This document shows positions 3,659 through 56,274 of a stretch of DNA of 64,000 bases, one piece after another. Position numbers and translations under genes: made by a program. Position 1 is the stretch's first letter, and each line of letters starts with the position of its first letter. The notes beneath the pieces were generated by a model. It had not been told where the DNA came from. It saw only the letters and a list, made by a program, of their open reading frames with translations, and made no database searches. Source of the stretch: Paracholeplasma brassicae (GTDB taxonomy: Bacteria; Bacillota_I; Bacilli_A; Acholeplasmatales; UBA5453); NCBI RefSeq assembly GCF_000967915.1, contig NC_022549.1, positions 186,001 through 250,000 of the forward strand, read 5' to 3'.

Positions 3659-3714
3659 AGCAAACCTGTGTTGTATGATGGATAACATACGATAAATGAT
3701 CGTCTTTAATCGAT

Positions 3715-3830
3715 AAAAAAAACACCAGTTAACTGGTGTTATAAATCAAATTTTAGGGTAGGGATGGCGTATTAAAGCCATCCCTACTTCTATTAATTTG
3801 GACCTTGGCGGATTTCAGAACACCAAGACC
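3715..3830 (-). ncRNA. Candidate stand-alone small RNA
   Basis: The minus strand has a good promoter: -35 TTTACT at 3865-3860, 17-base spacer, -10 TATTAT at 3842-3837. About 100 bases later comes a terminator, the perfect palindrome AACACCAGTTAACTGGTGTT (3740-3721) followed by eight T on this strand. Between them lie a stem GGTCTTGG/CCAAGGTC closing a 14-base loop (with G-U pairs) and a perfect 11-bp stem GTAGGGATGGC/GCCATCCCTAC. No open frame of note is present. It matches no RNA family I can name; 6S RNA is possible but unproven. It occupies most of the 386-base gap between the VanZ-like gene and the gene at 4045. Confidence 0.55.
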
Positions 3831-4044
3831 GATATCATAATAACACATTACCGATTTGAAGTAAATAAGAAAGAATGCGATTTGTTTAATATTGTTTGTT
3901 TATATATTTTCGTCTTTTTTTTAGATTTTTTCCATCTTGGAAAATTATGACCTTTTTTGATTATTTTTGTTGTATTACACGCATTTTTATGTTTAAATAT
4001 AGCTTGGCGACTAAAGTCAAGTTTTGTGGGGGAGGATTTAGTTC

Positions 4045-20216: not shown

Positions 20217-21512
20217 TTAAGACAAAAAATTTAGGATGAGTCTTAAATAAAAGACATGATTTTCGACTGAAAAATCAAGCATGGCTTGATTCTTTTTAGC
20301 AAAGGCAACCATGCTTAAGACCCCGGTACCATGGCCGTGTTCATTCGATATGGGTAGACCATCCTTAGAAAAGACAATGTCGTCAAAATAAGGGTTTGAT
20401 ATTTCTAAAAAGAGACTATCGTTTTTAAACCTAGAAGTTAAGGTGATCACACGATTGGACGCCTCAGGTATTTTTAAACACGCGTGGATCGCATTTTCAA
20501 TGGCATTTGAAAAGACAATCGCAAGCTCACTAGGGTTAATCGGTAAGACCTCTGGGATGTCTAGATTGGAGATCACCTCGATTTGTTCTAAAGAAGCGTA
20601 ATTGAGGTAATGTGAAAGGGCGGCGTTGATGACTTTATTTTTACAATACGATTTAGGGCTGACCTCAGATAAGGTTTGATCAAGGTCTTCTAAATAATGT
20701 GAGGCTTGTTTAAAATCTTTGGTCAAAATCAGTTCGTTAAGAATGGATAGGTGATGTCTTAGGTCGTGTTTGATGATCGCAATCTTTTCTTCGGCAAGAA
20801 AAATAGCCGCTGACTGTGCCTCAAGCGAGCTCACTTGAATACTCAACAGTTTTTTGTCACGCTCAAAGGAAATCTTCGATTCAATTTCTTGGAATAAGAA
20901 AAAGAGAACAACGTAGATGGATAAACCCAAAAACAGACCAACGTAGAGATGAATAAAATACTGTGGTCGGTATAAAATCGGATTTGGGACGAAACCGATG
21001 TAATAAGAAAGCACATAGGAGATGACCAAAACCAAGTTCAATATCCACCAGCCTTTATTGAGTGTTTTTACCATTTTTAAATAATGAGGCTGTATAAACC
21101 GATGAACAAATGGAAAGAAGAGTAAATAAGTGAGGACTCTAATGGTGGTATCAAGTAAAGGGTTATCTTTTTGAGTGGTTAAATAGGAAGCTAATAAACC
21201 ATTGACAATTGCGACGTTACCAAACACTTGGATGGATAACATAGCAAATAGAAGCTTTGCCCCTTTGTATATCGCGTAATAGGAATAAAGTAAAAAATTC
21301 GGTAGTAAGAGCGTTAAAAAGAAAAAACGGATATAAAAGTCAGATAAACCAAGGGAATCAATCATAAATGCGTTGGCTACTGTGATTAAAAACATACCAG
21401 AAATGATGATCAAACGGTGTTTCTTAACTGGTGGTTTTAAAGGCACTAGAATTAAAAGAAAATAACAGGCAAAGGCTTGTGAAATAAAGAGTCTGACAAT
21501 CGTTGGGTTCAT
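20217..21512 (-). CDS. GHKL-type (AgrC-like) sensor histidine kinase
   Basis: About six N-terminal membrane helices (residues 1-200) are followed by a cytosolic kinase core. HDLRHHLSILNEL carries the likely phospho-histidine, FSNAIENAIHACL is the N-box, and HGHGTGVLSMV is the G-box, as in the HPK10/AgrC and CitA/DcuS-like GHKL group. The start is ATG 21512 or GTG 21515, after AGAGGGGG. It lies directly downstream of the LytTR regulator and is probably its partner. The signal is unknown; AgrC relatives sense peptides, but no agrBD-like genes are visible here. Confidence 0.87.
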   Translation of the reverse strand: MNPTIVRLFISQAFACYFLLILVPLKPPVKKHRLIIISGMFLITVANAFMIDSLGLSDFYIRFFFLTLLLPNFLLYSYYAIYKGAKLLFAMLSIQVFGNVAIVNGLLASYLTTQKDNPLLDTTIRVLTYLLFFPFVHRFIQPHYLKMVKTLNKGWWILNLVLVISYVLSYYIGFVPNPILYRPQYFIHLYVGLFLGLSIYVVLFFLFQEIESKISFERDKKLLSIQVSSLEAQSAAIFLAEEKIAIIKHDLRHHLSILNELILTKDFKQASHYLEDLDQTLSEVSPKSYCKNKVINAALSHYLNYASLEQIEVISNLDIPEVLPINPSELAIVFSNAIENAIHACLKIPEASNRVITLTSRFKNDSLFLEISNPYFDDIVFSKDGLPISNEHGHGTGVLSMVAFAKKNQAMLDFSVENHVFYLRLILNFLS

Positions 21513-21516
21513 CACA

Positions 21517-22242
21517 TCAATAACCCCCTCTAAGCGTATAATCAAGGTATTGTTTTCTAACGAGTGTTCGTCTGTTTTTTGATATTGGAATAAAGGCTTG
21601 GTTGTTCATAATAAAACCATCAGGCACCATTTTTAAGACGTGATTAAGATTGACTAAATAAGATCGGTGTGAAAGGATGAATGATTGATGTTCAAATAAC
21701 GATGGAATCGTCTTTGAAAAAGTCGTACGGTAGAACTTACTTTTGATGACCGATTCTGTGGTCGTAAAGTAAAGCACGTGATCACGGTATTCAATCCATT
21801 TGATGTCAAGTAGGTTAAGCGTGATGCGTTCCGTTCTGGTTTCTATTTGGTATTTGACTGTTTTCTTTTTGACTAAATGGCTGGCCATTGCTAAAGCGTC
21901 ATTTAGCTCACTCGCTTTTAATGGTTTGATTAAATACCGAATGGCCAACATCTCATACGCATCAAGTGCGTATTCTTTAGAGGCGGTTAGAAAAATAATG
22001 ACCGCATCTTTGTTGTGTTTTCGTATGACCTTAGCAAGTTCAATCCCACTGAACTCGGGCATCAAAACGTCTAAAATAAAGACATCCGTGTGAGTTAAAA
22101 TCGTTTGATCATCAATGACTAGTTTAGGGTTTAAAAAGTAGGTCACATCAAGATCAAAACGGGTGATAACGTCTTTTTTTAACAGTGTTTTTAGATGAGT
22201 CATTTCGTTTTGATTGTCTTCACAAACCACCAGTTTTATCAT
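21517..22242 (-). CDS. LytTR-family response regulator (AgrA/LytR-like)
   Basis: This 241-residue regulator has an N-terminal receiver domain (VVCEDN at the start, phospho-acceptor in FILDVLMPEFSG) and a C-terminal LytTR DNA-binding domain. The latter shows the typical IKWIEYRDHVLYF and FILSHRSYLVNLNHV segments. LytTR proteins bind pairs of nine-base direct repeats spaced by about 12 bases, and such a pair lies upstream at 22355-22384. Transcribed before the kinase gene as a two-gene unit; its stop TGA is two bases from the possible GTG start of the kinase. Confidence 0.92.
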   Translation of the reverse strand: MIKLVVCEDNQNEMTHLKTLLKKDVITRFDLDVTYFLNPKLVIDDQTILTHTDVFILDVLMPEFSGIELAKVIRKHNKDAVIIFLTASKEYALDAYEMLAIRYLIKPLKASELNDALAMASHLVKKKTVKYQIETRTERITLNLLDIKWIEYRDHVLYFTTTESVIKSKFYRTTFSKTIPSLFEHQSFILSHRSYLVNLNHVLKMVPDGFIMNNQAFIPISKNRRTLVRKQYLDYTLRGGY

Positions 22243-22354
22243 AAGTCACCTCTAGGTATGCCTTCTTATTAATCTTTATTGATTAAGTGTGTATTACGAA
22301 CTCATTGTTTACTTAATTAGAGCAATATAATTTTATCACAAAGAGACCAATAAG

Positions 22355-22384
22355 ACAATTAAGTGATGAAGTGTCCCTTTTAAG
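22355..22384 (+). promoter_or_regulatory. LytTR-type direct repeat
   Basis: ACAATTAAG (22355-22363), 12 bases, then CCTTTTAAG (22376-22384). Spacing equals that of AgrA/LytTR sites, and the first half matches eight of nine consensus positions while the second matches about six. It lies between the LytTR regulator gene and the candidate RNA, 28 bases before the -10-like TATGAT at 22412. Confidence 0.45.
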
Positions 22385-22423
22385 TGATTGGTCTTTAAAA
22401 TATCGTTGACTTATGATAGATTA

Positions 22424-22604
22424 AACGCATAAACATAGACAACCATAAGCGTGTAAAACCCTGTGATTTGTTTAGAAGTTTAGAGACGTCAAGACTTAGA
22501 ATGAATATACCCTGAACTCCCCCCACGAGTTGGTCTATTTGGCTAGGTCTTTTGTCTTTATATGAGGGTTATATTTAGAAAAAACACAAATTTTGTGTTT
22601 TTTT
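22424..22604 (+). ncRNA. Candidate structured regulatory RNA with C-rich loop
   Basis: The region has no coding frame but folds well. An outer stem AACCCT / AGGGTT encloses a rod formed by AGAGAC/GTCTTT and AAGACTTAG/CTAGGTCTT, capped by AACTC-CCCCCAC-GAGTT with an all-C-rich loop. A terminator hairpin with T-run follows at 22577. Possible promoters are TATGAT (22412-22417), or TTGACT (22406) with TAAACA (22430). The closing stem, bulge and rod are 6S-RNA-like. The CUCCCCCCAC loop instead suggests an antisense RNA acting on G-rich ribosome-binding sites. This fills most of the 363-base gap; the rest is the regulator's promoter region. Confidence 0.5.
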
Positions 22605-22605
22605 C
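22577..22605 (+). terminator. Bidirectional intrinsic terminator
   Basis: AAACACAAA / TTTTGTGTTT with A-run before and T-run after. It can end both the plus-strand RNA and the minus-strand reductase gene. Confidence 0.7.
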
Positions 22606-23553
22606 TTAATGTTTATAAGTCATGGTTTTCTTGGGATTTAAGTACTTTGAGATCGATGAAACCGCGGTGGCTGCTTCACCCATGCCAGATGAAATCATTT
22701 TGATCTTACCAGGATAGGTAACTGAGTTGCCTGCGGCATAAATGCCTTTATGACTGGTTTCCATGTTGGTTTTTACTGTGATTAAGCCGTTATCGGTTTT
22801 TATGCCATACGCTTCGTAATCAGGTTTAATTGGGACGTTACCATAAAAGACCAGAAGCGCATCGGTTTTAAGTGTTGTCGTTTCTTTTGTCTCTAGGTGT
22901 TTGATCACAAGGGACGCTACCTTAGTTGTTCCTTCCATACGGATTGGTTCATAAGGTGTATAGACCTTAGCAAACGATTTGACTTGTAAGACGTTGTTTT
23001 CGTGGGCTCGAAAATCAGCTCTTCGGTGAACCACGTTAATGGATTTTGCGTAGGGTTGTAGGCTTAAGGCAAAATCAATGGAAGAATCGCCGCCACCTAA
23101 GATTGTGATGTCTTTGTCTTTAAAGTCGCTTAAACGCTCAACGAAATAGTGGATGTTATCAAACGCTTTTTCATTAGGTAGTCCAAGAGGTCGTGGTCGA
23201 AACATCCCACCACCATTACAAAACAAGATGGTCTTTGAAAAATAGACCCCTTTGTTTGTAATAATTTTGTAGTAATCTTCTTCGTGAACAAAATCAAGAA
23301 TTTGGATGTTTAACAGGATACGATCGGTTTGTTGTTGAGTTAAATATTGTTGGTATAAAGACAAAATGAGTTCACCTGCCGTTGTTTTTGGAAAACCAGG
23401 CATGTCATAAATATTCTTTTCTTTATATAGGTTTAGTGTACCACCGTAAAGATGGCTAGATTCTAATACGATGGCATCTAGGTTGTGCATCGCACAAAGC
23501 GTGGCGGCGTATAGACCCACAGGGCCACTACCAATGATGATAACGTCTTGCAT
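22606..23553 (-). CDS. Ferredoxin/flavodoxin-NADP+ reductase, thioredoxin-reductase-like
   Basis: This 315-residue flavoprotein has an N-terminal FAD motif (IIGSGPVGLYAA), a second Rossmann motif for NAD(P)H (ILGGGDSSIDFAL) with HRRADFRAHE, and the C-terminal GIYAAGN motif. It lacks the CxxC redox pair of thioredoxin reductases, so it best fits the YumC/type-2 ferredoxin-NADP reductase group. It probably links NADPH to ferredoxin or to the flavodoxin at 40.4 kb. Monocistronic, with a minus-strand promoter (TATACT) just upstream. Confidence 0.85.
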   Translation of the reverse strand: MQDVIIIGSGPVGLYAATLCAMHNLDAIVLESSHLYGGTLNLYKEKNIYDMPGFPKTTAGELILSLYQQYLTQQQTDRILLNIQILDFVHEEDYYKIITNKGVYFSKTILFCNGGGMFRPRPLGLPNEKAFDNIHYFVERLSDFKDKDITILGGGDSSIDFALSLQPYAKSINVVHRRADFRAHENNVLQVKSFAKVYTPYEPIRMEGTTKVASLVIKHLETKETTTLKTDALLVFYGNVPIKPDYEAYGIKTDNGLITVKTNMETSHKGIYAAGNSVTYPGKIKMISSGMGEAATAVSSISKYLNPKKTMTYKH

Positions 23554-40961: not shown

Positions 40962-40977
40962 AGCCGTGTATTCAATA

Positions 40978-41125
40978 TGTATCGTATAATCAGCCTAATA
41001 TGGGGGCTAAGTTTCTACCGCGAGCCTATAACGTCGCGACTACGATATGAAAACCATTTTTTTATTTGTTTTCATATGTAGAAATGCCACCTATTTTACC
41101 AAAAATAGGGGCATTTTTCTTTTTT
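40978..41125 (+). promoter_or_regulatory. Purine riboswitch (guanine class) with terminator platform
   Basis: The aptamer spans about 40978-41049: P1 TATCGT/ACGATA, ATAATCAGCC ... GGGGGCTAAG, the conserved GTTTCTACCGCG, and GTCGCGACTACG. The C in GACTAC indicates guanine/hypoxanthine rather than adenine. A hairpin ATATGAAAAC/GTTTTCATAT (41045-41077) overlaps the 3' side of P1. A terminator (stem AAATGCC-a-CCTATTTT with AAAATAGG-GGCATTT, T-run to 41125) follows. The expected logic is off when purine is bound. It controls the purine permease downstream. Confidence 0.92.
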
Positions 41126-54584: not shown

Positions 54585-54648
54585 TTGAGTTATTAAAAAG
54601 TCTATGATATAATATATCGGAAACTTACTATGGACGAAACGTCTATGG
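54585..54648 (+). promoter_or_regulatory. rpmE promoter and leader hairpin
   Basis: TTGAGT (54585-54590), 17 bases, TATAAT (54608-54613). The short leader contains CTATGGACG, loop AAA, CGTCTATGG (54628-54648), a nine-pair hairpin immediately before the ribosome-binding site. It might mediate autogenous control by L31, as L31 leaders do in other Firmicutes. Confidence 0.6.
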
Positions 54649-54664
54649 CGGAAGGAGAATGGAT

Positions 54665-56162: not shown

Positions 56163-56274
56163 GTATCCCTATGAGGCATCACCATTCAATTGTAGCGAGT
56201 GAACCTGGTCAGGTCTTGACTGAAGCAGCCATAAGCTTTGTTATGATGTGAGTGGTGATGCTTGATAGGGATAC
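56163..56274 (+). ncRNA. ffs: Signal recognition particle RNA (small, 4.5S-type)
   Basis: The invariant core GGTCAGGTCTTGACTGAAGC followed by AGCC is at about 56207-56230, containing the Ffh-binding asymmetric loop and apical region. The 5' end GTATCCCTAT, AGGCATCACCA pairs with the 3' end TGGTGATGCTT, ATAGGGATAC, giving one long hairpin of about 112 bases without an Alu domain. It may be processed from the tadA transcript or use a promoter within tadA. The classic GGAA-type tetraloop is replaced here by a TTGA-like loop. Confidence 0.93.

Follow-up and report, generated by a model that had tools for sequence, protein, structure and literature searches.

The direct repeat between a leftward two-component operon and a convergent thioredoxin-reductase-like (trxB-like) gene is, judged by its sequence, very likely a real LytTR operator, i.e. 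a predicted regulator site. The best single reading of the locus, to which we give roughly even chances, is that this operator is flanked by two promoters, a good one running leftward and a weak one running rightward that would serve a regulatory RNA of approximately 165-180 nt; plain autoregulation is the main rival. In this study, the locus was analysed in a window of 64 kb (the whole stretch of DNA, to which all positions refer) and in the genome of the wall-less host, which is one contig of 1,877,792 bp. The genome has one LytTR gene and one perfect LytTR-type repeat, and the two lie side by side, which supports the RNA model; the repeat is equally near to the leftward promoter, which counts against it.

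The two-component genes and the direct repeat

The sequence-only reading had described a LytTR regulator and an AgrC-like kinase running leftward, a repeat pair of 9 + 12 + 9 spacing and no visible peptide or processing gene, and each of these descriptions was confirmed. Both genes lie on the minus strand with domains assigned by Pfam (Table 1), and the regulator is the only LytTR (PF04397) match in the whole genome. The kinase has approximately five hydrophobic segments in its N-terminus, and its gene begins within the 3' end of the regulator gene. Thus, the pairing of a GHKL kinase with a LytTR regulator, a trait of agr, is present at the locus. The AgrB processing protease (PF04647) had no match in the genome, and no ORF for an AgrD-type precursor was found between the regulator and the trxB-like gene.

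From the LytTR regulator gene to the trxB-like gene, the intergenic region spans 363 bp and contains the exact repeat TTAAGTGAT-N12-TTAAGTGAT at 22359-22388. An exact 9-bp repeat at N12 occurred in 0.34% of the dinucleotide shuffles of this region, and in 0.96% when spacings of N11-13 were allowed. The 9+12+9 geometry has been described for the LytTR family (PMC2766830), and the plus strand, ACAATTAAG ... CCTTTTAAG, resembles the AgrA site ACAGTTAAG (PMC8228455). Compared with the SilA profile, repeat 2 fits at 9/10 positions and repeat 1 at 5/10 only. Genome-wide, the locus itself is the one perfect match to the repeat; the next-best match (2 mismatches) is intragenic, as are all three of the 3-mismatch sites that were opened, and the near-match class numbers 16 vs 10 in a reversed-pattern control, i.e. 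near control level. Moreover, the intergenic region holds four TTAAGT cores, both strands counted (P 0.006 by shuffles). The extra cores at 22283 (+) and 22311 (-), near the regulator leader and in opposite orientations, are possibly additional LytTR half-sites.

Table 1. Features of the locus, with positions in the 64-kb window.
Feature	Position	Strand	Remarks
GHKL sensor kinase gene	20217-21545	-	Pfam HATPase_c_5 (GHKL, AgrC-type ATPase) 52.6 bits
LytTR response regulator gene	21517-22242	-	Pfam Response_reg 51 bits, LytTR 31.5 bits
Leftward promoter of the two-component genes (predicted)	22330-22358	-	TTGTCT-17-TAAAAT, TGTG extended element
LytTR-type repeat 1, TTAAGTGAT	22359-22367	+	overlaps ACAATTAAG (22355-22363)
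LytTR-type repeat 2, TTAAGTGAT	22380-22388	+	12 bases past repeat 1; overlaps CCTTTTAAG (22376-22384)
Candidate rightward promoter	22394-22422	+	TTTAAA-17-TAGATT, TATG extended element
Alternative rightward -10, TATGAT	22412-22417	+	
Alternative rightward promoter	22406-22411, 22428-22433	+	TTGACT with CATAAA
Predicted regulatory RNA	22429-22606	+	5' end uncertain, 22424-22441; fold prediction
Closing stem (predicted)	22457-22462/22565-22570	+	
Side hairpin (predicted)	22465-22480	+	
Rod (predicted)	22481-22560	+	
Apical hairpin (predicted)	22515-22531	+	AACUC-CCCCCAC-GAGUU, C-rich loop 22520-22526
Terminator	22578-22604	bidirectional	hairpin, T-run on both strands
Convergent trxB-like flavoprotein gene	22606-23553	-	neighbour, outside the system

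Promoters around the repeat

The -35 element of the leftward promoter abuts repeat 1. Mapped promoters of A. laidlawii carry a -10 element TAWAAT, an extended element TRTG and a -35 element TTGACA (PMC5138195), and the extended and -10 elements of the leftward promoter (TGTG-A-TAAAAT) match this Acholeplasma consensus fully. The rightward candidate matches it poorly and scores no better than shuffled DNA. A weak rightward promoter beside a good leftward one is expected if only the rightward one needs an activator; the weak score fits an activator-dependent promoter and equally fits no promoter. The resemblance to the AgrA site and the SilA fit of repeat 2 hint that the repeats are oriented in the usual way, towards a plus-strand promoter. 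In AgrA sites, the proximal repeat is located approximately 60 bases upstream of the transcription start (PMC4227749), and the centre of repeat 2 lies 40 to 57 bases upstream of the rightward start, depending on the start chosen.

The structured plus-strand region

To the right of the repeat, a rod-like fold, a CCCCCAC hairpin loop, a terminator and no frame had been noticed from the letters alone, and of these only the terminator calls for a qualification. The entire fold of 22424-22604, terminator included, reached -46.4 kcal/mol (z -4.0). With the terminator excluded, the plus strand of 22457-22570 gave -33.0 kcal/mol vs -22.7 +/- 3.2 kcal/mol for shuffles (z -3.24, P 0.002), whereas the minus strand was ordinary (z -0.46, P 0.31); these P values are optimistic because the limits of the region were picked after the fold was known. 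The mean pair probability was 0.76-0.90 across 5' ends from 22424 to 22453. Furthermore, the pair probabilities of the rod were mostly >0.9 independently of the chosen 5' end, and the predicted structure did not change at 28, 30 and 37 C. The G-U pairs of the rod add to the strand asymmetry, as expected for a plus-strand RNA. The loop was found at its place in the apical hairpin, and no plus-strand ORF of at least 20 aa was found within the predicted RNA. Among arbitrary windows of equal length, 4.7% had z <= -3, and 16% of the intergenic windows had z < -2.5, many owing to terminators. The SRP RNA and the purine riboswitch of the same 64-kb window scored far better. Given these better-scoring RNAs and the post hoc limits, the fold is suggestive but no proof.

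The terminator is real. It is bidirectional, sits directly past the convergent trxB-like gene and its stop codon, and is shared with that gene; it therefore cannot by itself prove a plus-strand RNA, and its use as plus-strand evidence was given up.

Other structured elements were observed in the window. The purine riboswitch (40962-41062, 64.5 bits) was above its Rfam cut-off, and the bacterial small SRP RNA (56173-56267) scored 52.4 bits in Rfam. A match to the L31 leader of Firmicutes at 54628-54657 was just below the cut-off (28 vs 33.3 bits) and precedes a short ORF that, when translated, resembles ribosomal protein L31. Additionally, the intergenic stretch 3659-4044 is strongly structured (z ~-7.6), with near-perfect hairpins including GTAGGGATGGC/GCCATCCCTAC, and matched no convincing Rfam family.

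Relatives and conservation

A BLAST search of the intergenic region against 60 relatives returned short pieces only, mostly of the terminator, and a single-sequence covariance model of the RNA found only itself in 160 genomes of the order. No ortholog of the regulator was found in 60 relatives (best full-length match 27-30%). A wider contig scan with the regulator and a plasmid search with the kinase gave distant matches only, and viral contigs did not contain the exact loop pattern. In five members of the genus, the trxB-like orthologs (~50% identity) have other genes downstream and no predicted RNA nearby. Since no homolog of the intergenic DNA, the RNA model or the regulator was found, the unit is species-specific in the present data.

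The order has many regulator-kinase pairs arranged like this one, with identities of 22-32%, among them pairs in genomes G032 and G046. Upstream of approximately 30 related regulators, neither a clear matching repeat nor a recognisable RNA was found, except for a weak lead in genome G007 (L013). In that genome, TTAAGATAA-N13-TTAAGATAA is located ~310 bases upstream of a LytTR regulator gene and is like the repeat of the window in its core and nearly in its spacing; it may well be a chance occurrence, given 1.3 kb of AT-rich DNA.

Proposed mechanism and alternative explanations

For the regulatory RNA reading, we infer the steps of binding, activation, transcription and target pairing as follows. 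The polytopic GHKL kinase would sense a ligand and phosphorylate the LytTR regulator, which would bind the tandem repeat as a dimer and bring RNA polymerase to the weak promoter on the right. The repeat would thus act between divergent promoters, with the good extended -10 promoter serving the regulator-kinase operon leftward, and rightward transcription would yield an RNA of ~165-180 nt ending at the shared terminator. The CCCCCAC loop, exposed on a long rod, may base-pair with target mRNAs at their G-rich ribosome-binding sites.

GTGGGGG was found near a possible start codon at 11 sites vs 3 in a reversed control, approximately half of them at plausible gene starts. At the best site (G000:C1:355072-355086, L095), an acyltransferase-like gene has TCGTGGGGG before its ATG, and the complementarity to the C-rich loop region extends over 9 bases; this putative pairing is a post hoc lead only.

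Autoregulation alone would mean that the regulator acts, as activator or repressor, on the leftward promoter of its own operon, that the remainder is spacer plus the terminator of the trxB-like gene and that the fold arose by chance. This is a possible explanation, in which we place distinctly less than even confidence. The contact of repeat 1 with the -35 element of a good leftward promoter, the terminator directly behind the trxB-like gene, a rightward promoter not above chance and the ~5% of arbitrary windows that fold with z <= -3 all speak for it. However, autoregulation would leave aside a strand-specific, high-probability rod of ~30 pairs, a C6 run in AT-rich DNA and an orientation of the repeat that suits a rightward promoter, and it needs less than the ~215 bp of non-coding DNA that follow the repeat on its right side. 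A non-coding RNA with its own promoter and independent of LytTR, for instance 6S RNA in a diverged form or some other housekeeping RNA, is unlikely. Its length and rod shape would be 6S-like, and Rfam searches, run on the window with the gathering threshold and on the region with E values up to 10, detected no relevant family; in particular, 6S RNA (RF00013) gave no score at the region even at E 10, and the gathering threshold was not reached. This comparison, which the sequence-only reading had named as a check, thus came out without a match but is insensitive: the 6S model reached its cut-off in 0/41 genomes and was silent in this genome and in the other genomes of the genus and family that were covered, so that the absent match is weak evidence and a diverged 6S RNA could escape. 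The predicted fold, with internal loops of few bases, a closing stem of ~6 pairs and no large central bubble, argues against 6S more directly than the silence of the model. Moreover, a housekeeping RNA should persist in the genus, in which the covariance model finds none, and the neighbourhood of the trxB-like gene differs in relatives.

It was further considered that the plus-strand transcript might encode a very short peptide, e.g. a signal for the kinase, which would complete an agr-like logic. A frame of 15 codons started by TTG can be drawn at ~22469, but it sits within the rod, and the plus strand has no frame of 20 aa and no visible ribosome-binding site; together with the lack of AgrB in the genome, this makes the explanation very improbable. 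The regulatory RNA is kept as the best single reading. A stronger form of it, in which the RNA is the only direct target of the regulator besides its own genes and carries all of its output in a species-specific unit with no peptide-processing gene, is doubtful.

Comparison with known systems

Mollicutes have kept few regulators, and to our knowledge no Mollicute two-component system has been shown to act through a regulatory RNA. If the regulatory RNA reading is true, the set of a single regulator, a single site and a single RNA would be an unusually simple case for testing how a LytTR system works when it lacks its own peptide gene.

RNAIII of Staphylococcus aureus has C-rich loops, a likeness to the candidate RNA, which has approximately one-third of its length. 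The agr locus of S. aureus encodes AgrB and AgrD and has a repeat pair for each promoter, whereas a single pair is present here. The P2 and P3 promoters diverge around the AgrA repeats (PMC4227749), as do the promoters here, of which the rightward one is a candidate. The streptococcal sil system (SilA-SilB) shares LytTR direct repeats with a 21-bp period, and repeat 2 fits its profile; however, repeat 1 fits poorly, and the targets of SilA are mostly bacteriocin-related genes (PMC2766830).

Layouts lacking AgrBD are already known in fasBCA-FasX and virSR-VR-RNA (PMC3673130). In FasA-FasX, which has no known ligand, the regulator promotes the transcription of a small regulatory RNA (PMC3673130). 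Streptococcal FasBCA-FasX likewise combines AgrC-like kinases with an AgrA-like LytTR regulator; it differs in having two kinases, no sequence relation between the RNAs was found, and the regulator dependence shown in fas is here predicted from sequence. VirR of Clostridium perfringens binds a repeat pair upstream of the -35 element and drives regulatory RNAs (PMC2838878). The VirSR system (VR-RNA, VirT, VirU) also resembles the locus in its LytTR regulator and repeat pair, with a candidate RNA here, but VirR has multiple sites from which it drives multiple genes, whereas one perfect site is present in this genome. Of the traits common to FasX and VR-RNA, LytTR-type direct repeats upstream of the candidate RNA are present, as is structured non-coding sequence with a terminator, which is shared with the convergent gene. 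The sequence-only reading had likened the locus to agr and RNAIII without agrBD; the LytTR-type repeat beside a structured non-coding stretch and the lack of AgrB partly bear it out, but the arrangement is not new, and given the FasA-FasX and VirR-VR-RNA precedents (PMC3673130), the locus compares more closely with fas or vir. By this analysis, the locus would join FasX and VR-RNA in kind rather than found a new class.
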